Assembly (NCBI RefSeq): GCF_001682385.1
Contig: NZ_CP016210.1
Coordinates: forward strand, 2,914,001 to 2,978,000
Source of the DNA: Azoarcus olearius
GTDB lineage: Bacteria > Pseudomonadota > Gammaproteobacteria > Burkholderiales > Rhodocyclaceae
Direction of reading: 5' to 3'
DNA: 64,000 nt
Under the pieces are notes generated by a model. That model saw only the letters and a list, made by a program, of their open reading frames with translations. It was not told the DNA's origin and searched no databases. Shown here piece by piece: positions 7,523 to 20,625 of the stretch. A program made the position numbers and the translations under genes. Position 1 is the first letter of the stretch, and each line of letters starts with the position of its first letter.

Positions 7523-9067
7523 ATGACGCTCATCGCCCATCGCAAGCTCGCCCTCGCCGCCCTCGCCGCACTCACCCTTTCTGCCTGCAGCACCATCCAG
7601 CCCCAGCCGCTGGGCGAGGCGGCCCTGCGCGAACAAGGTGCGAAGGATCACGCGGCCGCTGCCGCCGACGTCGAACCGCTCGACACCGAGCTGACGCTGG
7701 ACCAGGCGATCGCGCGCGCGCTGAAGTACAACCTCGACCGCCGCGTGAAGATGATGGAAGAGGCGCTGACCTTCCGTCAGCTCGACGTCGCCCACTACGA
7801 CATGCTGCCGCGCCTGCTGGCGCAGGCCGGCTACAGCTGGCGCAACAACGACCGCACCAGCCGCAGCCTCAACCCCGACACTGGGGTGGTGAACGAGATC
7901 GGCTTCATCTCGCAGGACCGCGAGCACACCCTCAACTCGCTCGGCGTGAGCTGGAACCTGCTCGACCTTGGCGTCGGCTACTTCAATACCCGCCAGCAGG
8001 CCGACCGCGTGCTGATCGCCACCGAAAAGCGGCGCAAGGCGATGCACCTGCTGATGCAGGACGTGCGCACCGCGTTCTGGCGCGCGGCGAGCGCGCAGAA
8101 GCTGCAGGCCGATGTCCGCGCCGCAACCCGCACCGCCGAAGAGGCGCTGGCGGATTCGCGCAAGGCCGAAGCCGAGCGCCTGCGCAACCCGATCGACGCG
8201 CTGCGCTACCAGCGCCAGGTGCTGGAGAACCTGCGCCTGCTCGAAGCGATCGACCAGGAACTGTCCACCGCCCGCATCGAACTCGCGGCGCTGATCAACG
8301 CCCCGCTCGGGCAGTCGCTGACGCTGGTGGAACCGCCCGCGATGGTCGACCGCCAGCCGCTGGAGATTTCGGCCGAGCTGATGGAAGAGGTGGCGATGAC
8401 CTCCAACGCCGATGTGCGCGAGCAGCACTACAACGCCCGCATCGCGCGCGAGGAAACGCGCAAGACGCTGGTGCGCCTGTTCCCCAACCTCAGCTTCAAC
8501 TACGGGCTGAGCTACGACACCGACAGCTATCTGGTGAACAACCGCTGGAACGAAGCCGGCGTGCAGCTCTCGTTCAACCTCTTCAACCTCTTCACCGGCC
8601 CCACCCAGCTGCGCCTGGCCGACGCTGGCGTGGCGCTGGCCGACCAGCGCCGCGTCGCGGCGCAAATGGCGGTGCTCGCGCAGGTCCACGTCGGCCGCCT
8701 GCAGCTCGCCAACGCGCTCAACCAGTTCGAACGCGCCGACGCGATCTGGGAGACCGACCGCCGCATCGCCGAGCACACCCGCAACCGCGAAGCCAGCCAG
8801 GCGCAGAGCAAGCTCGACGTCGTCGCCAACCAGACCACCGCCATCCTCAGCCTGCTGCGCCGCTACCAGGCGCTGGCCCAGGCCCAGGCCGCGGAAGCAC
8901 GCCTGCAGGCCACGCTCGGCATCGAGCCGGGCATCGGTAGCGTCGGCGAAATCCCGCTGGCCGACCTCACGCGCGACGTGAGCCAGTCGCGCAACGTGTG
9001 GGCCGCGCTCGCCAGCCGCCCGCGCGCCGCCGAAGCCAGTGACGCCACCGGGGCCGCCGCCAAGTGA
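7523..9067 (+). CDS. TolC-family outer-membrane factor lipoprotein
   Basis: First gene of the repeat-protein operon. The 514-residue protein has a lipoprotein signal with lipobox LSAC (Cys22) and then the two long helical OEP repeats of the TolC family: LTLDQAIARALKYN, a helical hairpin with DVRTAFWRAASAQKL, and a second repeat with YNARIAREETRKTLVRLFPNLSF. It should be the outer-membrane exit duct working with the HlyD-like proteins encoded just downstream. The ATG at 7523 was chosen because the signal peptide begins there; longer in-frame starts are not signal-like. It overlaps the next gene by one base (TGATG). Confidence 0.9.
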   Translation: MTLIAHRKLALAALAALTLSACSTIQPQPLGEAALREQGAKDHAAAAADVEPLDTELTLDQAIARALKYNLDRRVKMMEEALTFRQLDVAHYDMLPRLLAQAGYSWRNNDRTSRSLNPDTGVVNEIGFISQDREHTLNSLGVSWNLLDLGVGYFNTRQQADRVLIATEKRRKAMHLLMQDVRTAFWRAASAQKLQADVRAATRTAEEALADSRKAEAERLRNPIDALRYQRQVLENLRLLEAIDQELSTARIELAALINAPLGQSLTLVEPPAMVDRQPLEISAELMEEVAMTSNADVREQHYNARIAREETRKTLVRLFPNLSFNYGLSYDTDSYLVNNRWNEAGVQLSFNLFNLFTGPTQLRLADAGVALADQRRVAAQMAVLAQVHVGRLQLANALNQFERADAIWETDRRIAEHTRNREASQAQSKLDVVANQTTAILSLLRRYQALAQAQAAEARLQATLGIEPGIGSVGEIPLADLTRDVSQSRNVWAALASRPRAAEASDATGAAAK

Positions 9068-9837
9068 TGCGGACGCCCGCCCTTCGCCCCTCGCTGGCCG
9101 CGCTGCTGGCGCTGCTTGCCACCCCGCTCGCCGCGCAGGACGCCGCGCAGCCGGCCGCCGCGCGTTCGGCGATGGAGCGCCAGGACATCCGCGCGCAGTT
9201 GATGCCGCGCCAGTTCACCGTGATCGCGGCCGAGATCGGCGCCAAGATCAGCCGCCTGCCGGTGGCCGAAGGCGGCGCCTTCAAGGCCGGCCAGCTGCTG
9301 GTGCAGTTCGACTGCTCGATGCAGCAGGCGCAGTTGCAGAAGGCGCGCGCGGAACAGAGCGCCGCGGAGCACACCTTCACCGCCAACCGCCGCCTGCTCG
9401 AACTCAACTCGATCGGCCAACTCGACGTCGACCTCGCCCGCGCGGCGCTCGCCAAGGCCAATGCCGAAGTCGGCGCGCAGCAGGCGGTGCTGTCCAAGTG
9501 CAGCGTCGCCGCGCCCTTCGCCGGACGCATCGCCGAACAGAAGGTGCGCGAGCAGCAGTACGTGCAACCCGGCCAGCCGCTGCTGGACATCCTCGACGAC
9601 AGCGTGCTGGAACTCGAATTCCTGGTGCCCTCGGCGTGGCTCGGCTGGCTCAAGCCCGGCGTCCGCTTCCAGGTGGATATCGACGAGACGCGCAAGAGCT
9701 ACCCGGCCAAGTTCACCCGCATCGGCGCGCGCGTCGATCCGGTCAGCCAGTCGGTCAAGGTCGCCGCCGCCATCGACGGCCGCTTTCCGGAGCTGATCAC
9801 CGGCATGAGCGGACGGGTGCGGATCACGCCGCCCTGA
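9067..9837 (+). CDS. Soluble HlyD/MFP-type periplasmic adaptor
   Basis: A 256-residue periplasmic adaptor-like protein with a cleavable signal peptide (LAALLALLATPLAAQDA) rather than a membrane anchor. It contains the split lipoyl/barrel-sandwich domain (EIGAKISRLPVAEGGAFKAG, QLLVQFDC, then after a short alpha-hairpin KCSVAAPFAGRIAEQKVREQQYVQPG) and a beta-barrel domain ending TGMSGRVRITPP. It is shorter than RND adaptors of about 380 residues because of the compact hairpin. A GTG three bases upstream is an alternative start; the ATG gives tight coupling with the TolC-like gene. It probably bridges the inner-membrane parts and the TolC-like duct. Confidence 0.85.
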   Translation: MRTPALRPSLAALLALLATPLAAQDAAQPAAARSAMERQDIRAQLMPRQFTVIAAEIGAKISRLPVAEGGAFKAGQLLVQFDCSMQQAQLQKARAEQSAAEHTFTANRRLLELNSIGQLDVDLARAALAKANAEVGAQQAVLSKCSVAAPFAGRIAEQKVREQQYVQPGQPLLDILDDSVLELEFLVPSAWLGWLKPGVRFQVDIDETRKSYPAKFTRIGARVDPVSQSVKVAAAIDGRFPELITGMSGRVRITPP

Positions 9838-9910
9838 GCAGCCCGCGCGTCCGAGAACCTCGCCCCCAAACGCGTCATCACTGTCGGCACTGCGCCGCAC
9901 GAGTTCGAAG

Positions 9911-12900
9911 ATGAACAACAAAACGTCCCCGACGATCGTCCTCCCGCCCGCCTCCCGCGTCCCCACGTCGCGCCTGGTGCGCCGCAGTCCGCGCCCGCTG
10001 GCGCTGGAGCAGCGCTTCATGTTCGACGGCGCCGCCGTCGCCGAAGCCACGCATGTGGTCGAGGGCGCCGCCGCGCCGGCGGCCGACCTGCTGAGCTTTG
10101 CCGCCGACGCCCCGGCGGCGCTCAAAGCGGCCGAGGCGCTGGCCGAGCAGGCGGTGGGCGACTTCCTCGCCCGGCCCGACGCGCGCGAGCAGCTCTTCGC
10201 GCTGTTCAACGGCGGCCAGAGCGAACCCTCCGCGCAATGGCAACAGGCGGTCGACTCCCTGCTCGGCTCGCTCGCGGACGGTGACGCGAAGATCTCGGTG
10301 GAACTGCGGTCCGACGCGGAACTGCAGGGCGCGCTCGGCGGCTTCTCGGCCAGCGGCACCCAGGGCGAGGCCGTGATCTACCTCAACCGCGACTGGCTGG
10401 ATGCGGGCGCGGGCGCCGAGTGGATCCAGCGCGTACTCGTCGAGGAACTCGGCCACGCGCTCGACGCCCGCCTCAACCCCGGCGGCGACACCCCGGGCGA
10501 CGAAGGCCAGCTGTTCGCGGCCACCGTGCTCGGCGAATCCACCAGCGCCACCGGCTTCGCGCTCGACAACGACCACCGCACGCTGGAACTGGACGGCACG
10601 CCGGTCGAGATCGAGGCCGCCAACCTCAGCTTCGTCAACGCCTACGAGGTCAATGCGGCAACCACGCCCGCCGGCAAGGAAGCCAACTCGCACGACTTCG
10701 TGTTCACCAGCCTCGGCGCCGCGGTGATCAACGACGACACCAACAGCCGCTACTTCAGCGGCAACGACGTCTCCGCGGTCGGCATCAACATCGGCGGCCA
10801 GACCTACTACGGCTGGGTGAGCCGGCCGATCAAGGTGCAGGGCGTGGTGCGCGGCTTCTACTTCTGGACCGACGCCGACTTCACCTCGCTCGCGGCCGCG
10901 CAGGCCGACGGCAACCAGGACGGCGACCGCAACGTGGCGGACAACCGCGGCTTCATCCTGGTGGTCGACCAGGCTCATTTCGACAGCCTGGGCTGGGTCG
11001 ACCAGACCGCCAACCTGAAGAACATCGGTTCGTCGTCCGACCGGGTGGACACCGCGCTGAACAGCCTGGTGCAAGCCTATGTCGCCCCCACCGCGGTCGC
11101 CGACGTGGCCAACGGCACGCCGGGCACCAGCGGCGGCGCCGCGGTCGAAGCGGGCGGGTTGAACAACGGCACCGCAGGCAATGAGGCCTTCGGCAACGTG
11201 CTGACCAACGACACCGTCGATGGCAGCGCCAGCAAGACCGTGATCCGCGTCGGCACCACCACGGCCAGCCAGACGGTAAACGCCACCACCACCTCGGCCA
11301 ACGGCACCGCGGTGCAGGGGCAGTACGGCACCCTCACCCTCGGCGCCGACGGCAGCTACCGCTACGTGGTCGACAACGGCAACGCCGCAGTGGAAGCGCT
11401 GCGCAGCAGCAGCAACACGCTGACCGAGAGCTTCACCTACACGATGGCTGACGGCGCCGGCGGCACCGCCACCACCACGCTGACGGTGACGATACGCGGC
11501 GCCAACGACACCCCGATGGCCAACAACGACTACGCGGTGGCGAAGGAATCGATTGCCGGCAGCGGCCAGTACGGCGCAGGCGACAGCAGCGGCACGCTCG
11601 CCACCGGCAACGTGCTGGCCAACGACACCGACCCGGACCGCTCCGGCGAAGAGAAGTGGGTCGTCGGCGTCAGCATCGAAGGCAGTGCGACCGGGCTCTC
11701 GCAGGGCACGGTGACCTTCTCGGTAACGATGGACACGCAGAACACCAACTCCATCAACCCGAGCAACAACACCTACTACGCCTACAAGGTGGACGGCAGC
11801 ACGATCACGCCGCTGTACCACAGCGACGGCGTGACCCGCGTCACCGTGCTGACCAAGAGCGGCACCGGGCAGAACATCGGCTTCACGTTCTCCGACCCCA
11901 CCGCCTTCAACGGCGTGACCCGCTTCACGGTCAGCACCAGCAGCAACCCGGCCAGCCTGGGGACCAACTTCCTCGGCACCGTGACCAACACCACCGTCGC
12001 TGCCTCCACCTCGGTGCTGATCTCGGCGCCCAGCGGCACCATTGCCGTGGGCATGTCGGTTGGCGGCACCGGCCTGGCGACCGCGCCCACGGTGCAGGCC
12101 ATCCAGTACGACGGCAGCGGCAACATCACCTCGCTGACGCTCAGCGCCTCCGTCGCGCTGACCAACCAGGCGCTCAGCTTCACCGCCGCCGCCAGCGCCG
12201 GCACCGACCTCGTCGGCCGCTACGGCGTGCTGCGCCTGAACGCCGACGGTTCCTACGTCTACACCCCCACCGCCAACAACGCGGCGCTGGCCGAAGGCCA
12301 GGTCGGGGTGGAGACCTTCACCTACACCATGCGCGACGCGGCCGGTGCCACCGACACCACGTCGCGCAGCATCGCCACGCTGACCATCCGCGTGCTCGGC
12401 TCCGGCAGCAACGACCCCAACGCGGTCAACGACGCCATCACCGCGACCGAGGCCGGCGGCGTGGCCAACGGCACGCCGGGCACCGACCCCAGCGGCAACC
12501 TGCTCGACAACGACACCACGCCGGGCGGCACCAAAACCGTGGTGTCGGCACGCAGCGCCAGCAACTCGGCAGATACGGCGGTCGGCAGCAATACCCAGAT
12601 CACCGGCCGCTACGGCGTGCTCACGCTCAACGCCGACGGCAGCTACAGCTACGCGCTCAACAACAGCGACACCGCGGTGCAGGCGCTGCGCAACAGCTCG
12701 GACACGCTCAGCGACACCTTCATCTACACCGTCGAGAACGGCCTCACCGCCAGCGGCAACCCGCTGCGCGATTCCGCCACGCTGGTGGTGACCATCGCCG
12801 GCGCCAACGATGCGCCGGTGGCAGCCGATGTCTCCGCCAGCGCGACGGAAGCCGGCGGCACCGGCAATGCCACGCCGGGCTACAACCCGGCCGGCAACGT

Positions 12901-15900
12901 GCTCGCCTACGTCACCGATGTGGACGACGCGGCCAGCGAACTCCGCGTCACCGCGGTGCGCACCGGCGCGGTGGAAGGCGCCGGCACCGCCGGCACGGTC
13001 GGACAGGAGATCGTCGGCCTTTACGGCCGCCTGACGCTGAACGCCAACGGCAGCTGGACCTACGTGGTCGACAACACCAACCCGACGGTGAATGCGCTCG
13101 CGCCCGGGCAGACCCTGGTCGAAGCCTTCAACTACACCGTCACCGACCGCAGCGGCACCGGCCTCTCCGACGACGCGGTGCTCACCATCACCCTCAGTGG
13201 CGCCGAGGATACGGTCGCGGTCAACAGCGTGTTCGTGAACGAGGCCTCGCCCTACGCGGTGTTCACCGTCAGCGGCGCGGAAGGCGTCGTCGTCAGCCTC
13301 GAACTCGGCAACACCAGCGGGCTTGCCCCCAGCGACACCCGCGCCACGCTCACCGGCCCCGGCGCCGACATCGGCAGCCAGCTGGAATACTTCGACGGCA
13401 GCAACTGGGTCCAGTACGACGCGCTCAACCCGCCCGCGCTGCCCGCGGGCGGTCAGCTCTTCGTGCGCGTCGCTGTGAACCCGGACGACGTCCACGAAGG
13501 CAACGAGTCCTTCACGCTGACCGCCACCACGGCGGACGGCAACGCCAGCATCGGCACGGGCACGGTCGGCGACGAGGGCGAAGGCGAGGTCTTCCTCGCC
13601 ACCAACCCCGGCGGCACGCCCAACGCGCCGGGCGACGCCGGCTTCCCGACGCTCGACGACGACCGCCCCACGATCAGCGTCTCCAGCCCCACCGTGGTCG
13701 AAGGCGACATGGTCGAATTCACCATCAGCATCGACAAGCTCGCCAGCGCGCCGATCAGCTTCACGCCGGTGTTCGCCAACCTCACCGCCCAGCTCGGCAC
13801 CGACACCGCCGCCCTCAGCACGGTGGAGGTCTCGACCGACGGCGGCACCACCTGGGTGGCGCTTTCGGGTGCGGTCACGATCGCGGCCGGCGAATCTTCG
13901 GTGATGCTGCGCATCGCCACGGTGGACGACCCGACCGCCGAGCTGTCCGAACAATTCACGCTGTCCACCGGCTACATCTCCGGCACCGTCGCCAACCCCT
14001 TCGGCGCCACCGGCACCGCCACGCTCACGGACAACGACATCGTGCCGGCCCCGGTGGTCACGCCGGGGCAGAGCTTCTCCTACCCCGAGAACCGCGCCAG
14101 CGGCTTCGTCATCGGCCAGGTCGCGGCCACACACCCGATCGGGGTGAGCGAGTTCGAGATCACCGCCGGCAATGCCGACGGCTATTTCGCGATCGACGCC
14201 TCCGGCAACCTCAGCCTCACCGCCGCCGGCGCCGCGGCGCTGGCCGCGGCCAACGACTACGAGACCGGCGCCAACAGCTTCACCCTCACCGTGCGTGCGC
14301 GCGAAGCGGGCGGCACCTGGTCCACCGGCGTCGCGGTAACGCTGAATCTGACCGACCTCGACGAAATCGCGCCGGTGGTCCCGCCGGGCCAGCAGTTCAG
14401 CTACGCGGAAAACCGCGCCGCCGGCCATGTGATCGGACAGGTCGTCGCCACCGACGCGGTCGGCGTCACCGCCTTCGAGATCACCGCCGGCAACGCCGAC
14501 GGCTATTTCGCGATCGACGCGGCGGGCAACGTCACCCTCACCGCCGCCGGCGCCGCGGCGCTGGCCGCGGCCAACGACTACGAGACCGGCCCCAACAGCT
14601 TCACCCTCACCGTCCGTGCGCGCGACGCCGCCGGCAACTGGTCCGCCGGGGTGGCGGTGACGCTGGAGCTGACCGACCTCGACGACACCGCACCGGTCAT
14701 CCCCGCGGGCCAGCAGTTCTCCTACGCGGAAAACCGCGCCGCCGGCCATGTGATCGGACAGGTCGTCGCCACCGACGCGGTCGGCGTCACCGCCTTCGAG
14801 ATCACCGCCGGCAACGCCGACGGCTATTTCGCGATCGACGCGGCGGGCAACGTCACCCTCACCGCCGCCGGCGCCGCGGCGCTGGCCGCGGCCAACGACT
14901 ACGAGACCGGCCCCAACAGCTTCACCCTCACCGTCCGTGCGCGCGACGCCGCCGGCAACTGGTCCGCCGGGGTGGCGGTGACGCTGGAGCTGACCGACCT
15001 CGACGACACCGCACCGGTCATCCCCGCGGGCCAGCAGTTCTCCTACGCGGAAAACCGCGCCGCCGGCCATGTGATCGGACAGGTCGTCGCCACCGACGCG
15101 GTCGGCGTCACCGCCTTCGAGATCACCGCGGGCAATGGCGACGGCTATTTCGCGATCGACGCCGCGGGCAATGTCACCCTCACCGCCGCCGGCGCGGCTG
15201 CGCTGGCCGCGGCCAACGACTACGAGACCGGCGCCAACAGCTTCACCCTCACCATCCGTGCGCGCGACGCCGCCGGCAACTGGTCCGCCGGGGCGGCGGT
15301 GACGCTGGAGCTGACCGACCTCGACGACACCGCACCGGTCATCCCCGCGGGCCAGCAGTTCTCCTACGCGGAAAACCGCGCCGCCGGCCATGTGATCGGA
15401 CAGGTCGTCGCCACCGACGCGGTCGGCGTCACCGCCTTCGAGATCACCGCGGGCAATGGCGACGGCTATTTCGCGATCGACGCCGCGGGCAATGTCACCC
15501 TCACCGCCGCCGGCGCGGCTGCGCTGGCCGCGGCCAACGACTACGAGACCGGCGCCAACAGCTTCACCCTCACCATCCGTGCGCGCGACGCCGCCGGCAA
15601 CTGGTCCGCCGGGGCGGCGGTGACGCTGGAGCTGACCGACCTCGACGACACCGCACCGGTCATCCCCGCGGGCCAGCAGTTCTCCTACCCGGAAAACCGC
15701 GCCGCCGGCCATGTGATCGGACAGGTCGTCGCCACCGACGCGGTTGGTGTTACCGCCTTCGAGATCACCGCCGGCAATGCCGACGGCTATTTCGCGATCG
15801 ACGCCGCGGGCAATGTCACCCTCACCGCCGCCGGCGCGGCTGCGCTGGCCGCCGCCAACGACTACGAAACCGGCCCCAACAGCTTCACCCTCACCGTGCG

Positions 15901-16630
15901 TGCGCGCGACGCCGCCGGCAACTGGTCCGCCGGGGTGGCGGTGACGCTGGACCTGACCGACGTCGCCGAGAACACCGCGCCGGTCGAACCGCCGCCGCTG
16001 CCCGAAGCCCCGGTTCCGGTGCCGCCGCCGGTGCCGGTGCCCGCTGCTGCACCGCCCGAAGCGCCCCAGGCGGCACCGGCGGCGCCCGCGCCTTTCGTTT
16101 CCGCACCGCTCGAACGGCTGGTGCTCGATACCCGCTCCAGCGCGCTGCCGCAGGACGTACTCACCAGCGTCGATGGCTTCCGCGTCGTCGTGATCGAGGC
16201 GCCGCTGCCCACGCTCAGCATCTACCGCGGCGTGGCGGACCAGCACGCCGAGCGCGGCGCGAGCAGCAGCTTTGCGGTGCCGTACGACGCCTTCGCCCAT
16301 ACCGATCCGGACGAGCGCATCGTGTTGTCTGCCAAGCTCGCCGACGGTGGCAACCTGCCCGGCTGGGTGCGCTTCGATCCGCAGAGCGGCAAGTTCGACT
16401 ACGACGCGCCGGACGACTTCGTCGGCGAGATGGTGATCAAGATCACCGCGCGCGACAGCAAGGGGCGCGAGGTCAGCGTGCTGTTCCGCTTCACGGTCGG
16501 CGAGAAGGCGCTCGACAAGCGTGGCCGCGCCGCGCTGAGCGAGCAGTTGCGCCAGGCCGCACAGCGCGGCGGATTCGCCGCCAGCCTGCGGGCGGCCCCG
16601 CTCGCCACGGGCCCTAGCGGCCGCGCCTGA
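9911..16630 (+). CDS. Giant repeat protein with VCBS, Calx-beta-like and cadherin-like domains (putative secreted adhesin)
   Basis: A 2239-residue protein, the likely cargo of the surrounding secretion genes. It has no Sec signal; instead residues 32-40 (LEQRFMFDG) match the LEPR-xLL-type N-terminal signature of giant secreted proteins. A conserved segment follows near 175-205 (VLVEELGHALDARLN, then GDTPGDEGQLFA). Four VCBS-type domains run from about 397 to 1098, each ending in motifs like GANDAP. A Calx-beta-like domain lies at about 1255-1378, then six 107-residue cadherin-like repeats (about 1381-2022), a Pro-rich linker and an Ig/cadherin-like C-terminal domain ending in GRAALSEQLRQAAQR and a short tail. 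There are no RTX nonapeptides. It is probably a calcium-dependent surface or biofilm protein; that role is inferred. Confidence 0.9.
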   Translation: MNNKTSPTIVLPPASRVPTSRLVRRSPRPLALEQRFMFDGAAVAEATHVVEGAAAPAADLLSFAADAPAALKAAEALAEQAVGDFLARPDAREQLFALFNGGQSEPSAQWQQAVDSLLGSLADGDAKISVELRSDAELQGALGGFSASGTQGEAVIYLNRDWLDAGAGAEWIQRVLVEELGHALDARLNPGGDTPGDEGQLFAATVLGESTSATGFALDNDHRTLELDGTPVEIEAANLSFVNAYEVNAATTPAGKEANSHDFVFTSLGAAVINDDTNSRYFSGNDVSAVGINIGGQTYYGWVSRPIKVQGVVRGFYFWTDADFTSLAAAQADGNQDGDRNVADNRGFILVVDQAHFDSLGWVDQTANLKNIGSSSDRVDTALNSLVQAYVAPTAVADVANGTPGTSGGAAVEAGGLNNGTAGNEAFGNVLTNDTVDGSASKTVIRVGTTTASQTVNATTTSANGTAVQGQYGTLTLGADGSYRYVVDNGNAAVEALRSSSNTLTESFTYTMADGAGGTATTTLTVTIRGANDTPMANNDYAVAKESIAGSGQYGAGDSSGTLATGNVLANDTDPDRSGEEKWVVGVSIEGSATGLSQGTVTFSVTMDTQNTNSINPSNNTYYAYKVDGSTITPLYHSDGVTRVTVLTKSGTGQNIGFTFSDPTAFNGVTRFTVSTSSNPASLGTNFLGTVTNTTVAASTSVLISAPSGTIAVGMSVGGTGLATAPTVQAIQYDGSGNITSLTLSASVALTNQALSFTAAASAGTDLVGRYGVLRLNADGSYVYTPTANNAALAEGQVGVETFTYTMRDAAGATDTTSRSIATLTIRVLGSGSNDPNAVNDAITATEAGGVANGTPGTDPSGNLLDNDTTPGGTKTVVSARSASNSADTAVGSNTQITGRYGVLTLNADGSYSYALNNSDTAVQALRNSSDTLSDTFIYTVENGLTASGNPLRDSATLVVTIAGANDAPVAADVSASATEAGGTGNATPGYNPAGNVLAYVTDVDDAASELRVTAVRTGAVEGAGTAGTVGQEIVGLYGRLTLNANGSWTYVVDNTNPTVNALAPGQTLVEAFNYTVTDRSGTGLSDDAVLTITLSGAEDTVAVNSVFVNEASPYAVFTVSGAEGVVVSLELGNTSGLAPSDTRATLTGPGADIGSQLEYFDGSNWVQYDALNPPALPAGGQLFVRVAVNPDDVHEGNESFTLTATTADGNASIGTGTVGDEGEGEVFLATNPGGTPNAPGDAGFPTLDDDRPTISVSSPTVVEGDMVEFTISIDKLASAPISFTPVFANLTAQLGTDTAALSTVEVSTDGGTTWVALSGAVTIAAGESSVMLRIATVDDPTAELSEQFTLSTGYISGTVANPFGATGTATLTDNDIVPAPVVTPGQSFSYPENRASGFVIGQVAATHPIGVSEFEITAGNADGYFAIDASGNLSLTAAGAAALAAANDYETGANSFTLTVRAREAGGTWSTGVAVTLNLTDLDEIAPVVPPGQQFSYAENRAAGHVIGQVVATDAVGVTAFEITAGNADGYFAIDAAGNVTLTAAGAAALAAANDYETGPNSFTLTVRARDAAGNWSAGVAVTLELTDLDDTAPVIPAGQQFSYAENRAAGHVIGQVVATDAVGVTAFEITAGNADGYFAIDAAGNVTLTAAGAAALAAANDYETGPNSFTLTVRARDAAGNWSAGVAVTLELTDLDDTAPVIPAGQQFSYAENRAAGHVIGQVVATDAVGVTAFEITAGNGDGYFAIDAAGNVTLTAAGAAALAAANDYETGANSFTLTIRARDAAGNWSAGAAVTLELTDLDDTAPVIPAGQQFSYAENRAAGHVIGQVVATDAVGVTAFEITAGNGDGYFAIDAAGNVTLTAAGAAALAAANDYETGANSFTLTIRARDAAGNWSAGAAVTLELTDLDDTAPVIPAGQQFSYPENRAAGHVIGQVVATDAVGVTAFEITAGNADGYFAIDAAGNVTLTAAGAAALAAANDYETGPNSFTLTVRARDAAGNWSAGVAVTLDLTDVAENTAPVEPPPLPEAPVPVPPPVPVPAAAPPEAPQAAPAAPAPFVSAPLERLVLDTRSSALPQDVLTSVDGFRVVVIEAPLPTLSIYRGVADQHAERGASSSFAVPYDAFAHTDPDERIVLSAKLADGGNLPGWVRFDPQSGKFDYDAPDDFVGEMVIKITARDSKGREVSVLFRFTVGEKALDKRGRAALSEQLRQAAQRGGFAASLRAAPLATGPSGRA
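14051..15976 (+). repeat. Six tandem 321-bp repeats inside the adhesin gene
   Basis: Six direct repeats with an exact 321-base period begin at 14051, 14372, 14693, 15014, 15335 and 15656; each encodes one 107-residue cadherin-like unit. Units 2 and 3 appear identical in DNA over most of their length, as do units 4 and 5 (sharing ITAGNGDG and LTIRARD variants). Unit 1 is the most diverged. The pattern implies recent duplication of whole units and predicts variation in copy number between strains. Confidence 0.95.
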
Positions 16631-17985
16631 TGGCGGAGCAGACCGCGCTGCCGGGCGCAGCGGTCCTTTCGCTGCTCGATCTCACGCGCAAGGCGCGTCA
16701 CGCCGAATCGGCGCGCGAACTCGGCTTCATCGCGGTAAACGACAGCCATGCGCTGGCGCCCTACCGCCAGGCGGCGCTGTGGCTGGAAGGCAGCGGCGTG
16801 TACGGCCTGTCCGGGGTGCTGCAGGTCGAGGCCAACGTGCCCTACGTGCAGTGGCTGGACAAGGTGTGCCGCGCCCAGGCGGAAGCCGGCCACACGGCGC
16901 AGCGGCTGACGGCCGCCGAGCTGCCGCCGGCACTCGGTGCCGAGTGGGCCGAGTGGCTGCCCGCCTACGCCCTGTGGCTGGCGCTGCCGGGCAGCGCCGC
17001 GGGCGGTGGCCTGCTGCTTGCCCGCGACCTGCCCTGGACCGAAGCGGAGATCGTGCTGCTGGGTGAGTGGCTCGATGCCTGGGCCCACGCCTGGCGGGCG
17101 CTCCACCGGCCGCCGCGCGGGTCCCTGCGGGCGCTGGTTGCACGCCGCCGCGGCGCCGCGGACGACAGCCGCCCCTGGTGGCGCCGCCCGCTGCTGCGCT
17201 GGGTAACAGGCGCGCTGCTGCTGGCTGCGCTGCCGGTACGGCTGACGGTGCTGGCGCCGGGCGAACTGGTGCCCGCCCATCCGGCGGTGATCCGCGCCCC
17301 GCTCGACGGCGTCATCGACACCTTTCATGTGCAGCCCAACCAGACCGTCAAGCAGGACCAGCCGCTGTTCGGTTTCGACGAGGCGCTGATCCAGGCCAGG
17401 CTGGCCGTCAGCCGCCAGGCGCAGGCCACTGCGGAGGCGGAATACCGCCAGGCCGCGCAGCAGGCGCTCAGCGACGGCCGCTCCAAGGCCCAGCTCGCGC
17501 TGCTCACCGGCAAGATCGAGGAACGGCGCGCCGAGGCGGCCTTCGTCGAGGCGCAACTCGCCCGCGCGCGGGTGCTCTCGCCGCGCGACGGCGTGGCGCT
17601 GTTCGACGACCCCTCGGAATGGCTGGGGCGACCGGTCAGCGTGGGCGAACGCATCATGCGCATCGCCGAGCCGGGTGACCTCGAAGTGGAAGCCTGGGTG
17701 CCGGTCGCCGATGCGATCCCGCTCGCGCCGCAGGCGCGCGTCAGCCTCTACCTCACCGCCAGCCCGCTCTCCCCGGTGGAAGCGGAGGTGCGCTACGTGG
17801 CGCACGACGCAGTGCAGCGCCCGGACGGCAGCTACGCTTACCGCCTGCGCGCCACCCTGGTCGGCGACACCGACCATCGGGTCGGCCTCAAGGGCACCGC
17901 CAAGCTCAGCGGACGCTGGGTGCCGCTGGCCTACTGGGCAATGCGGCGGCCGCTGGCCAGCGCGCGCGCCTACCTCGGCTGGTAA
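16630..17985 (+). CDS. Membrane HlyD-like adaptor with N-terminal GAF-like cytoplasmic domain
   Basis: A 451-residue protein in two parts. Residues about 10-165 form a soluble domain that looks GAF-like ([25 protein letters not shown], then [12 protein letters not shown] and [12 protein letters not shown]) and should be cytoplasmic. A single membrane segment at about 193-212 ([20 protein letters not shown]) leads to a periplasmic HlyD-type adaptor: a lipoyl half ([25 protein letters not shown]), a short coiled-coil hairpin, a second half ([13 protein letters not shown]) and a beta-barrel. The ATG overlaps the adhesin stop by one base. A sensory domain on an adaptor is unusual for type I secretion. 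Confidence 0.85.
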
Positions 17986-17987
17986 GC

Positions 17988-20099
17988 ATGGCGCTACCCG
18001 TGCTGCGCGAGGAGCTTGCGCTGCTGCCCGGCCCGGCGCTGGCCGACGGCCAGCCGAGCTGGACGCTGCACGACCCGGTGCGCGGCCGCTTCTTCAGCAT
18101 CGACTGGCCCACCTTCGAGATCCTGCAGCGCTGGTCCTTCGACGACCCCGCCTCGATCGCCGCCTCCATCGCCGCCGACACCACCCTGCAGCTGCAGGCG
18201 GACGACGTGCTCGAAGTCGTGCGCTTCCTGTCGGACAACCAGCTCGTCCGCCCCTCCGGCGCCGACAGCGCGCGCCGGATGACGAAGAGCCTGGCGCGGG
18301 CCGAAGGCGGAACGCTGAAATGGCTGCTGCACCACTACCTGTTCTTCCGCGTGCCGCTGCTGCGGCCCGACGCCTGGCTGACGCGCTGGATGCCGTTTGC
18401 CGAGCACTTCTACTCGCGCGGCTTCCTGCTGCTGACGCTCGCGGCCTTCGTGCTCGGCGCGTGGCAGGTCGCGCGCCAGTGGGACGGTTTCGTCGGCTCG
18501 CTGGTGGACACCTTCACCTGGTCCGGGCTCGCGGCCTACGGCGTGGCGCTGATCGCGGTGAAGTTCCTGCACGAGCTGGGGCACGCCTTCACCGCCAAGC
18601 GCCACGGCTGCCGGGTGCCGGCAATGGGCGTGGCCTTTCTGGTGATGTGGCCGGTGGCCTATACCGACACCAACGAAACTTGGCGCCTGACCCGGCGCGG
18701 CCAGCGGCTGCAGGTGGCCGCGGCCGGCATCGTCACCGAACTGCTGATCGCGGCATGGGCGACGCTGGCGTGGGCGCTGCTGCCGGACGGCGGCCTGCGC
18801 TCGGCCTTTTTCGTGCTCGCCACCACCAGCTGGGTGGCCACGCTCGCAATCAACGCCAGTCCCTTCATGCGCTTCGACGGCTATTTCATCCTGTCGGACT
18901 GGCTGGACCTGCCCAACCTGCACGAGCGCAGCTTCGCGCTCGCACGCTGGAAGCTGCGCGAAGCGCTGTTCGACCTGCGCGAGCCCTGCCCGGAGCATTT
19001 TGCCCCGGCGCGCGCGCGCGGGCTGATCCTGTTCGCGTGGGCCACGTGGCTGTACCGGCTGGTGGTGTTCATCGGCATCGCGCTGCTCGTCTATCACTTC
19101 TTCTTCAAGCTGCTCGGCGTGTTCCTGTTCCTGGTGGAGATCGCCTGGTTCATCGCGCTACCGGTGCGCCACGAACTGCAGGCCTGGCGCCAGCGCTGGC
19201 CGGCAATCCGGGCGCGGCGGCGCATCCGCCTGGTGGCTCCGGCGCTGCTGGCGCTGCTCGTGCTGCTGGCGCTGCCGCTGCCGGGGCGGGTGACCGCCAG
19301 CGGCGTGGTGCGCGCCGCCGCGGTGTGGCCGGTGTTCGCGCCCGCCGCGGCCCGGTTGCAGCAGTTCGATCTGCGCGAGGGCAGCGCCGTCGCCGAGGGC
19401 GCGGTGATCGCCGTGCTCGACAACCCGGAACTCGCGGCCCGCCGCGAGGCGGTGGTGGCCAAGGTCGAGCGCCTGCGCTGGCAGGCACAGACCGCCGGCT
19501 TCGATGCCGAGGCGCGCAGCCGGCTGCAGAGCAGCCAGGAAGAACTCGCCACCGCCGAGGCCGAGCTGGCCGGCATCGACGAGGAAGCGGCGCGCTACCG
19601 CCCCGCGGCGCCCTTCGCCGGCCGCCTGCGCGACCTCGACCCCGACCTGCAGGCCGGGCAATGGCTGGCGAACAAGGAGCAGATCGCGCTGCTGGTGGGC
19701 GACGGCGGGCGCATCGTGGAAACCTGGCTGGACGAAGAGGCGGTCAAGCGCCTCGCGGTCGGCGACCGCGGCGTCTTCGTGCCCGACAGCGGCGAGGGTC
19801 CGGTGCTGCGGCTGGCGGTCAGCGCGATCGACGCCGACGCCAGCCGCGTGCTCGGCCGCGGCATCCTGGCCGCGCCCGCCGGCGGCCACATCCTGGTCCG
19901 CGAACGCAACCGCCAGCTCATCCCGGAACATGCGGTCTACCACGTCGTGCTGGCGGTGGACGAAGACCCCGCCGCCGGCACCGCCGGGCACGACCAGATG
20001 CTGCGCGGCACGGTTTCCATACGCGCGCGCTGGGAAGCGCCGCTGCAGCGCTACCTGCGCAACGCGCTGATGGTGGTGATCCGGGAATCGGGGCTGTAG
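17988..20099 (+). CDS. PqqD-like / M50 site-2-protease-like / HlyD fusion protein
   Basis: A 703-residue inner-membrane protein, last in the adhesin operon, starting two bases after the previous stop. Residues about 20-90 resemble a PqqD-like winged-helix domain ([22 protein letters not shown], continuing to [11 protein letters not shown]). Residues about 145-400 form a polytopic M50/site-2-protease domain with HELGH (195-199) and the distal [10 protein letters not shown] motif with Asp297, so zinc ligation looks intact. About 440-700 is a periplasmic HlyD-like adaptor with split lipoyl halves around a helical hairpin ([37 protein letters not shown]). It may process, recognise or conduct the giant cargo; none of these roles has been shown here. 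Confidence 0.87.
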
Positions 20100-20208
20100 C
20101 GCATTCTCGCCGGCGCCGGGTCGCGCGCGCCGTTTTTCCCCGTCGCGCTTGACCCGCGCCGCCGGCCGAGCTAACACCACGCTTTTCCATCCACAGCCCT
20201 GCACACCC

Positions 20209-20625
20209 ATGCGACTGACCGCGCTCCTCCTCGCCGCCCTCCTCCCCGTTCCCGCCCTGGCAGCGCCCGCCTTCACCGGCACCGACTACAGCGGCATCTA
20301 CGACTGCAGCGGCGACGACGCCCACGAAGGCAAATACACCGGCGTCGTCACGCTGGCGCTGGACCGCGCGCAGAGCGTGGGCGAATACGGCGCCTACAGC
20401 TTCAAGCTGGAAGTGCCCGGCTACGGCACCTACCTCGGCCAGGCGGCGGCGCACGGACAACAGATGGCGGTCCACTTCGCGCTCACTGACCAGAGCACCC
20501 GCGACTACGGCACCGGCATCGCCCGTTTCAGCAAGAAGAACGGCAAGCTGAGCTTCCACAAGTATTACTACGAGCCGGAATTCAAGGGCGGCAACTACGG
20601 CACCGAGGACTGCACGCGGCGCTGA
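20209..20625 (+). CDS. Small exported protein of unknown function
   Basis: A 138-residue protein with a clear Sec signal peptide (MRLTALLLAALLPVPALAAP) and a compact, probably beta-rich mature domain containing YSGIYDCSGDDAHEGKYTG near the start and the C-terminal GGNYGTEDCTRR, whose Cys may pair with the first. Similar short proteins occur in beta- and gammaproteobacteria, but I know of no function. It lies 109 bases downstream of the secretion operon in the same direction, so cotranscription is possible but not indicated. Confidence 0.7.
   Translation: MRLTALLLAALLPVPALAAPAFTGTDYSGIYDCSGDDAHEGKYTGVVTLALDRAQSVGEYGAYSFKLEVPGYGTYLGQAAAHGQQMAVHFALTDQSTRDYGTGIARFSKKNGKLSFHKYYYEPEFKGGNYGTEDCTRR

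Follow-up and report, generated by a model that had tools for sequence, protein, structure and literature searches.

How a 2239-residue repeat protein would leave the cell when its operon encodes an outer-membrane channel and periplasmic adaptors and no ABC transporter is the question raised by a locus of Azoarcus olearius, analysed here within a stretch of 64,000 nucleotides (the window; NZ_CP016210.1, positions 2,914,001 to 2,978,000). We propose, with a probability of roughly 0.6, that the operon is a tripartite exporter for its giant, addressed through a PqqD/RRE domain and working without an ABC transporter of its own; that the machinery encoded in the operon exports the giant is in itself very likely.

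Organization of the operon

The genes lie on the plus strand in the order TolC, HlyD1, giant, HlyD2 and PqqD-M50-HlyD. The first (7523..9067) encodes a TolC-family outer-membrane channel (Pfam OEP, E 4.5e-31) with a lipoprotein-type N-terminus, the lipobox (LSAC) being recognized by eye. It is followed by HlyD1 (9064..9837), a HlyD/RND-type periplasmic adaptor of 257 amino acids that is matched by RND_mfp (126 bits, cut-off 94.9) and Pfam HlyD_3 and begins with what by eye is a Sec-type signal. The giant cargo (9911..16630), in which model matches identify Big_9, cadherin and LapB-type repeats, precedes HlyD2 (16630..17985), whose 451 residues comprise about 190 GAF-like N-terminal residues, a membrane span assigned by eye and a HlyD adaptor (Pfam HlyD_3, E 3.7e-20). 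The last gene (17988..20099), starting with ATG and present as a single copy in the A. olearius genome, encodes the 703-residue PqqD-M50-HlyD protein. No ABC transporter gene was found in the operon, and a conventional ABC-driven type I system encoded there was thereby ruled out.

The GAF assignment in HlyD2 is weak, one of 28 members being matched at E 0.033. The approximately 190 conserved residues ahead of the span (window 16630-17190) are perhaps a degenerate GAF domain and a possible sensor; an alignment of the RRE domain against this N-terminus found no link. Antisense to the giant, the minus strand holds a 2140-residue open frame (window 9878-16300), which looks like a by-product of high-G+C repeats and not a gene. 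A small open reading frame with a Sec-type signal, again by eye, lies directly 3' of the operon (window 20149-20625).

For neighbourhood counts, 80 relatives were taken from genome contigs. In 77 of these, HlyD2 is the gene immediately 5' of M50, the remaining three being located at a contig edge, and HlyD1 is found farther upstream in 17, with a giant in between in 15. At two Herbaspirillum loci the giant is convergent and lies downstream of the exporter genes, so the linkage of giant and exporter survives a change in gene order.

Domain architecture of the PqqD-M50-HlyD protein

RREs are leader-peptide binders in RiPP pathways. The preliminary description of the locus had assigned a PqqD-like segment to the N-terminus of the 703-residue protein and had suggested comparing a predicted structure of it with PqqD/RRE folds; the comparison returned that fold. 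In the AF2 model of residues 1-112 (pLDDT 86), the domain (residues 1-90, 17988..18257) adopts the winged-helix fold of solved PqqD/RRE structures, made up of three helices and a small sheet. VIA-align placed it closest to 6jx3_B (Z 10.8, rmsd 2.6, 82 residues aligned), followed by 5v1u/5v1v (Z 9.4-9.6) and PqqD 5sxy (Z 9.0), the top solved matches being the leader-bound TfuB1 and TbiB1 together with PqqD (80-83 residues, rmsd 2.4-3.1). With Foldseek, rows 1-9 were all RREs or RRE-bearing RiPP enzymes (probability 0.97-1.00), none of the rows reaching E 0.001 (best E 3.7e-3). A PDB search with a profile of the PqqD and M50 parts gave just two matches at E 0.01: PqqD 3g2b (positions 4-90, E 9.6e-5) and MJ0392 (3b4r, E 0.0036), a site-2 protease. 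In single-sequence HMM searches no Pfam or NCBIfam model matched the RRE domain of the window; Pfam PqqD matched eight of 56 family members (best E 2.2e-7).

The M50 site-2-protease-like membrane core (about residues 144-402, 18417..19193) passes the Pfam cut-off (E 8e-10) and was delimited from Pfam, hydropathy and the profile search. Five clear spans are seen in the hydropathy of the protein, and more helices in the structure model. Both HExxH and the distal Asp (NxxPxxxxDG) are present within the core: reading of the sequence and alignments identified the HELGH zinc site (residues 195-199, 18570..18584) and Asp297 (18876..18878), the presumed third zinc ligand. All 47 aligned relatives share H195, E196, H199, N289, P292 and D297, and the catalytic residues are likewise 100% conserved in each of the two clades of a larger set (39 and 72 sequences, the divergent L141 excluded). 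The core was hardly probed by the full-length VIA search, which returned mostly adaptor rows. Residues 430-689 (19275..20054) form a HlyD/MexA-like periplasmic adaptor, which passes the Pfam cut-off for HlyD_3 (E 3e-7) and resembles MexA/AcrA/MacA-type adaptors (Z up to 13.7). From the domain order, the RRE would be cytoplasmic and the adaptor periplasmic.

All three parts named in the preliminary description were thus recovered, including the intact protease motifs. Their combination in one chain, which it had called striking, is present and is not exceptional, since the PqqD-M50-HlyD architecture is widespread and little studied: M50 joined to HlyD is described in the available text of PMC4452313, and NCBI annotation names some relatives 'PqqD family' or M50/HlyD.

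A conserved N-terminal segment of the giant

Near its start, the giant of the window lacks any hydrophobic stretch of the Sec type. Its proposed export signal, LEQRFMFDG (residues 32-40, 10004..10030), follows the basic stretch RLVRRSPRPLA. The protein has no GGxGxD (RTX) repeat and no cysteine, and scores 176 bits against the BapA/Bap/LapF model NF045619 (cut-off 180). All 16 complete HlyD1-giant-HlyD2 units (the window and 15 loci, selected without the motif) have a giant with LE-x-R-h-h-F-D-G close to its N-terminus, and these giants likewise show no Sec-like stretch. Alignment A4 was selected by the motif, and its invariant columns are no proof by themselves. In one lineage (f153; L139, L141) the giant opens directly with M-RKLE(Q/E)RVVLDAA. 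The N-terminal element, a basic stretch followed by L-E-x-R-h-h-F-D-G/A-A, is conserved; its function would be that of a signal.

Related motifs are known. The LEPR-XLL (NF012209) and Planc_extracel (PF07595) motifs have an LExR core after basic residues, as does the window's segment. RRLxxExLExRxLLA was proposed as a novel planctomycete export signal (Studholme 2004, as cited in the part of PMC8567305 available). The FDGAA form of the window differs from LEPR-XLL, scoring below the model cut-off (12.8 of 17 bits), which is passed by five of the six cargos submitted from a sister clade of exporters (starting, for example, with EELEPRILYSAD); four of these six carry DUF4347. PF07595 has no match in the A. 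olearius genome at E 1, and the connection to it comes from the likeness of the motifs and from one sub-threshold match in a sister-clade cargo (L123, 15.6 of 25.5 bits).

Co-occurrence of the proposed signal and exporter

A search with a full-length alignment (A2) mostly picked up HlyD proteins, matching 260 of 274 genomes, and an alignment of the PqqD and M50 parts (A3) was used instead. With this profile, 80 of 249 Pseudomonadota genomes were positive for the protein, and LEPR-XLL was found in 44. The protein was present in 43 of the 44 LEPR-positive and in 37 of the 205 LEPR-negative genomes (p 8e-25, a value that ignores kinship and overstates independence). Counted by genus, it was present in 26/26 LEPR-positive and 16/106 negative genera (p 7e-17, independence again being overstated by related genera). 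The lone exception among the 44 (G569) is 86% complete and congeneric with a positive genome.

In a class sample of 274 genomes, the protein was found in 43 (including weak partial matches in G104, G125 and G333) and LEPR-XLL over cut-off in 32, and the protein accompanied the motif in 21 of these 32 genomes compared with 22 of the 242 others. Matches of NF012209 below about 20 bits were regarded as largely due to chance; the model matched 123 of the 274 genomes at E 1, as well as seven of the 14 genomes used as controls (one of them over cut-off), and at E 0.01 none of the 14 controls. Where LEPR matches reached at least 22 bits, 16 of 18 genomes had the protein. The FDG-type profile A4 reached at least 19 bits in ten genomes, the window's own among them, eight of which have the protein; the other two are G345, where the signal lies at a contig end, and G126 (19.3 bits). 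For at least 32 of 71 LEPR matches a listed M50 gene lies on the same contig, within 6 kb in at least 25 of these cases.

LEPR-positive genomes without the protein include G176, where all candidates were scored and no protein match exceeded 16 bits, and G313 (LEPR 28.9 bits, 7373-residue frame), where none of the 37 candidates, all scored, exceeded 10.5 bits. The G313 genome is rated 100% complete, and its 7373-residue LEPR-type giant (L134, ESLEQRLLLSTSP, minus strand from about 10120) may be served by a different exporter, or the exporter may have been lost.

Conversely, cargo-like open reading frames without the motif adjoin the exporter at L051 and L132, and 66 window-type loci received no motif call: in 48 a cargo-like frame runs off the fetched DNA, 14 have no cargo-like frame and four have other, motif-less frames. 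On Magnetospirillum plasmid pMSR-1 (L132:10451-11929), exporter genes accompany an ELWxxDGT cargo-like protein that has no LExR start and is possibly truncated. In Azospirillum thermophilum (L133:6362-14546) annotation divides the cargo stretch into three coding sequences; the first is short, has RLEPRMMFDGAA and stops early, giving the impression of a broken or split giant.

ABC transporters encoded elsewhere

The A. olearius genome does encode an LssB-type type I ABC transporter (C1:721246-723330, 998 bits), far from the operon. As a control, LssB was scored with four candidates per genome. It exceeded the cut-off in 22 of 44 LEPR-positive compared with 56 of 205 other genomes (p 0.003) and in 41 of 80 protein-positive compared with 37 of 169 protein-negative genomes (p 4e-6), both values ignoring kinship and overstating independence; at E 1e-100 it was found in 37 of 44 LEPR-positive and 112 of 205 other genomes. 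LssB is therefore enriched with both signal and exporter, far less tightly than the exporter is with the signal.

These counts bear on an explanation in which the PqqD-M50 part acts only in processing: a maturation protease of the daptide/YydF kind would trim the leader, a type I ABC transporter encoded elsewhere would carry the giant, and the HlyD part would dock to it. In addition to the LssB enrichment, the invariant M50 active site speaks for this, as do the best-scoring named models, among them NF041824 for the daptide intramembrane protease (156 bits) and YydH/LiaK (33 bits), and a Vibrio giant that, according to the available part of PMC10868602, combines an N-terminal LEPR-XLL with a C-terminal RTX domain, as a type I cargo would have. 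However, the curated cut-offs are far higher (NF041824, 156.5 of 300 bits; NF058609, 32.6 of 225 bits), so the protein is no member of the daptide family. LssB over cut-off is absent from the other 22 of the 44 LEPR genomes, seven of which have no LssB-like ABC even at E 1e-100; the RTX repeat is missing from the window's giant; and a TolC and two further adaptors are encoded in the operon itself. We consider this explanation unlikely.

Plasmid-borne copies also weigh against it. Relatives were found in 77 plasmid records from E. coli and others, with at least 18 Escherichia and at least eight Citrobacter records among the matches listed (40 of 77). On two E. coli plasmids the cassette has the order giant-TolC-HlyD1-HlyD2-M50. 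Whole cassettes with a giant of about 4460 residues and the signal ALESRQLFDGAAL occur at L131 (NZ_CP081743.1, an E. coli plasmid) and L164 (NZ_CP081687.1). The annotated parts of four plasmid copies contain no ABC gene, and none was found in the incomplete gene table of a whole 69-kb plasmid and a 41-kb stretch. The plasmid searches returned no planctomycete record among the matches listed (40 of 77; 60 of 65). The ABC-like open reading frames beside L139 and L141 resemble Uup/ABC-F proteins by eye.

Two exporter clades and the question of the motor

Among 155 M50 loci, 41 have FD[GA]-type and nine SAD-type cargo starts. A SecA gene lies within 6 kb of the M50 gene at none of the former and at six of the latter, and the window-type HlyD2 is absent from all nine SAD-type loci. 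In a tree of 112 of the 155 M50 matches (window-type rows lacking a cargo call were thinned, fragments below 330 residues were omitted, and the FD-type rows L139 and L140 are absent), a branch with SH-aLRT 100 separates 9/9 SAD-type from 39/39 FD[GA]-type rows, and the same branch parts 63 rows with the window-type HlyD2 from 35 with SecA. The two clades thus differ in the form of the motif: LExRxxSAD is usually accompanied by a second SecA, whereas LExRxxFDGA, the window's form, occurs without one. One counter-example is L046 (6874-7767), where a SAD-type LEPR start (PLEPRVLLSADP), missed by the composition filter, lies 1.2 kb past a window-type M50 gene.

The same division was seen at the level of whole genomes. 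Among 48 genomes sorted into types beforehand by the analyst, a second SecA was found in 18 of the 22 counted as SAD-type and in none of the 13 window-type or the 13 exporter-less genomes. Four genomes counted as SAD-type had no second SecA; in three of them (G403, G428 and G464) the sampled M50 gene groups with the window's clade in the tree, and G451 is unplaced. The A. olearius genome encodes one SecA in all. In the sister clade the motor is likely the second SecA-like ATPase that is usually encoded beside the M50 gene; as the window's clade has no such gene, the housekeeping SecA, an unlinked ABC transporter or extracellular folding would have to do the work.

This distribution also bears on the suggestion of Kamneva et al. 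(2015), in the available text of PMC4452313, that the M50 protein is a pore and SecA the ATPase. Applied to the window, a non-cutting M50 fold and the HlyD part would make up an inner-membrane pore driven by a SecA-like ATPase. That sister-clade loci have a secondary SecA close to the M50 gene fits this scheme, but none of the 13 window-type genomes searched has a second SecA, and complete conservation of the zinc ligands and catalytic Glu in both clades is not expected of a mere pore, so that we regard it as quite improbable. Still more improbable is an RRE that is a relic or reads something else, such as a small peptide, with LExR serving another step, such as surface anchoring: G313 has the motif without the protein and some exporter loci are without a motif-bearing cargo, but motif and protein co-occur across genomes and the form of the motif matches the exporter clade.

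A proposed export mechanism

The preliminary description had suggested that the 703-residue protein acts on the giant through the LEQRFMFDG region. The association of protein and motif holds, in all 16 complete units, in the co-occurrence across genomes and in the two clade-specific forms; binding itself is proposed on these sequence patterns. The best structural matches of the RRE are leader-bound RREs and the motif forms track the exporter clades; for these reasons the domain probably reads the LExR signal and is the best candidate for a reader of the giant's N-terminus, the link being correlative.

In the proposed RRE-addressed exporter, the giant, having no Sec-like signal, would present its N-terminal basic stretch and LExR segment. 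The cytoplasmic PqqD/RRE domain would bind the latter, as RREs bind RiPP leaders, a step suggested by the co-occurrence and the clade-specific motif forms. The M50 core would then receive the signal at the membrane and either clip it or gate it into the conduit. The HlyD parts of the 703-residue protein, HlyD2 and HlyD1 would connect to the lipoprotein-type TolC, and the giant would be exported to the surface in one step. Site-2 proteases normally cut membrane-spanning substrates, and the LExR signal of the giant is not hydrophobic, which counts against site-2 cleavage; that the signal is cut by proteolysis has, in our view, slightly less than an even chance, and that the M50 core forms part of the conduit is rather doubtful.

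Relationship to known systems

A module of M50-HlyD, GAF-HlyD, HlyD, OEP and a secondary SecA_DEAD was described by Kamneva, Poudel and Ward in 2015 (PMC4452313), who, in the text available, called its role completely unknown and listed Methylobacterium extorquens AM1 as having a second-SecA operon. The operon of A. olearius resembles this module, as far as the available text describes it, in its M50-HlyD protein, its (weakly) GAF-like HlyD, a further HlyD, a TolC (present in some of the Kamneva loci) and the lack of any ABC gene found, and wide spread with lateral transfer is common to both. The window's clade differs in that no secondary SecA was found, either beside the M50 gene or elsewhere in the genomes searched. 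'PqqD' does not occur in the available text of PMC4452313, where cargo words gave nothing specific and no cargo or signal is named.

With the RREs of RiPP systems (TbiB1, TfuB1, PqqD) the window's domain shares the predicted fold and the N-terminal position, and a leader-binding role is proposed by analogy. It differs in sharing its chain with a protease core and an export adaptor, and its proposed ligand is the N-terminus of a 2239-residue protein, whereas RiPP RREs act on a short precursor. The daptide/epipeptide intramembrane proteases (NF041824, NF058609) have an M50 core with HExxH in common with the protein, and the daptide model match spans residues 59-391, beginning inside the RRE region. 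A RiPP cluster, prompted by that match, is not supported, the match being below cut-off and neither a precursor nor a modifying enzyme having been noticed at the locus.

Canonical type I secretion of the LapA/BapA type likewise involves a giant repeat cargo, a HlyD adaptor and a TolC channel. Unlike these systems, the present operon has no ABC gene, its giant has no RTX repeat and the proposed signal is N-terminal rather than C-terminal.

No paper joining PqqD, M50 and HlyD, naming a site-2 protease together with HlyD and PqqD, or connecting the exporter module with the export motif was found among the open-licence papers listed, and neither of the LEPR-XLL papers mentions HlyD or PqqD in the text available. 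The M50-HlyD machinery itself is already known, as are the parts; new are the link between signal, receptor and cargo, as proposed here, and the branch without a second SecA. Tentatively, and with less than even odds, these may belong to an unrecognized secretion pathway that uses an RRE as signal receptor, with LExR on giants across Pseudomonadota, Planc_extracel as the same signal in planctomycetes, one branch driven by a second SecA and the window's branch lacking a dedicated ATPase.

Two orphans may explain each other: the export motif of 2004, which the available part of PMC8567305 still described in 2021 as thought to be a novel export signal, and the exporter module of 2015. If the RRE reads the motif, this would provide a transport route for many giant surface proteins and a role for RREs beyond RiPP pathways, and simple deletions could then test whether one-step export works with no dedicated ABC motor.
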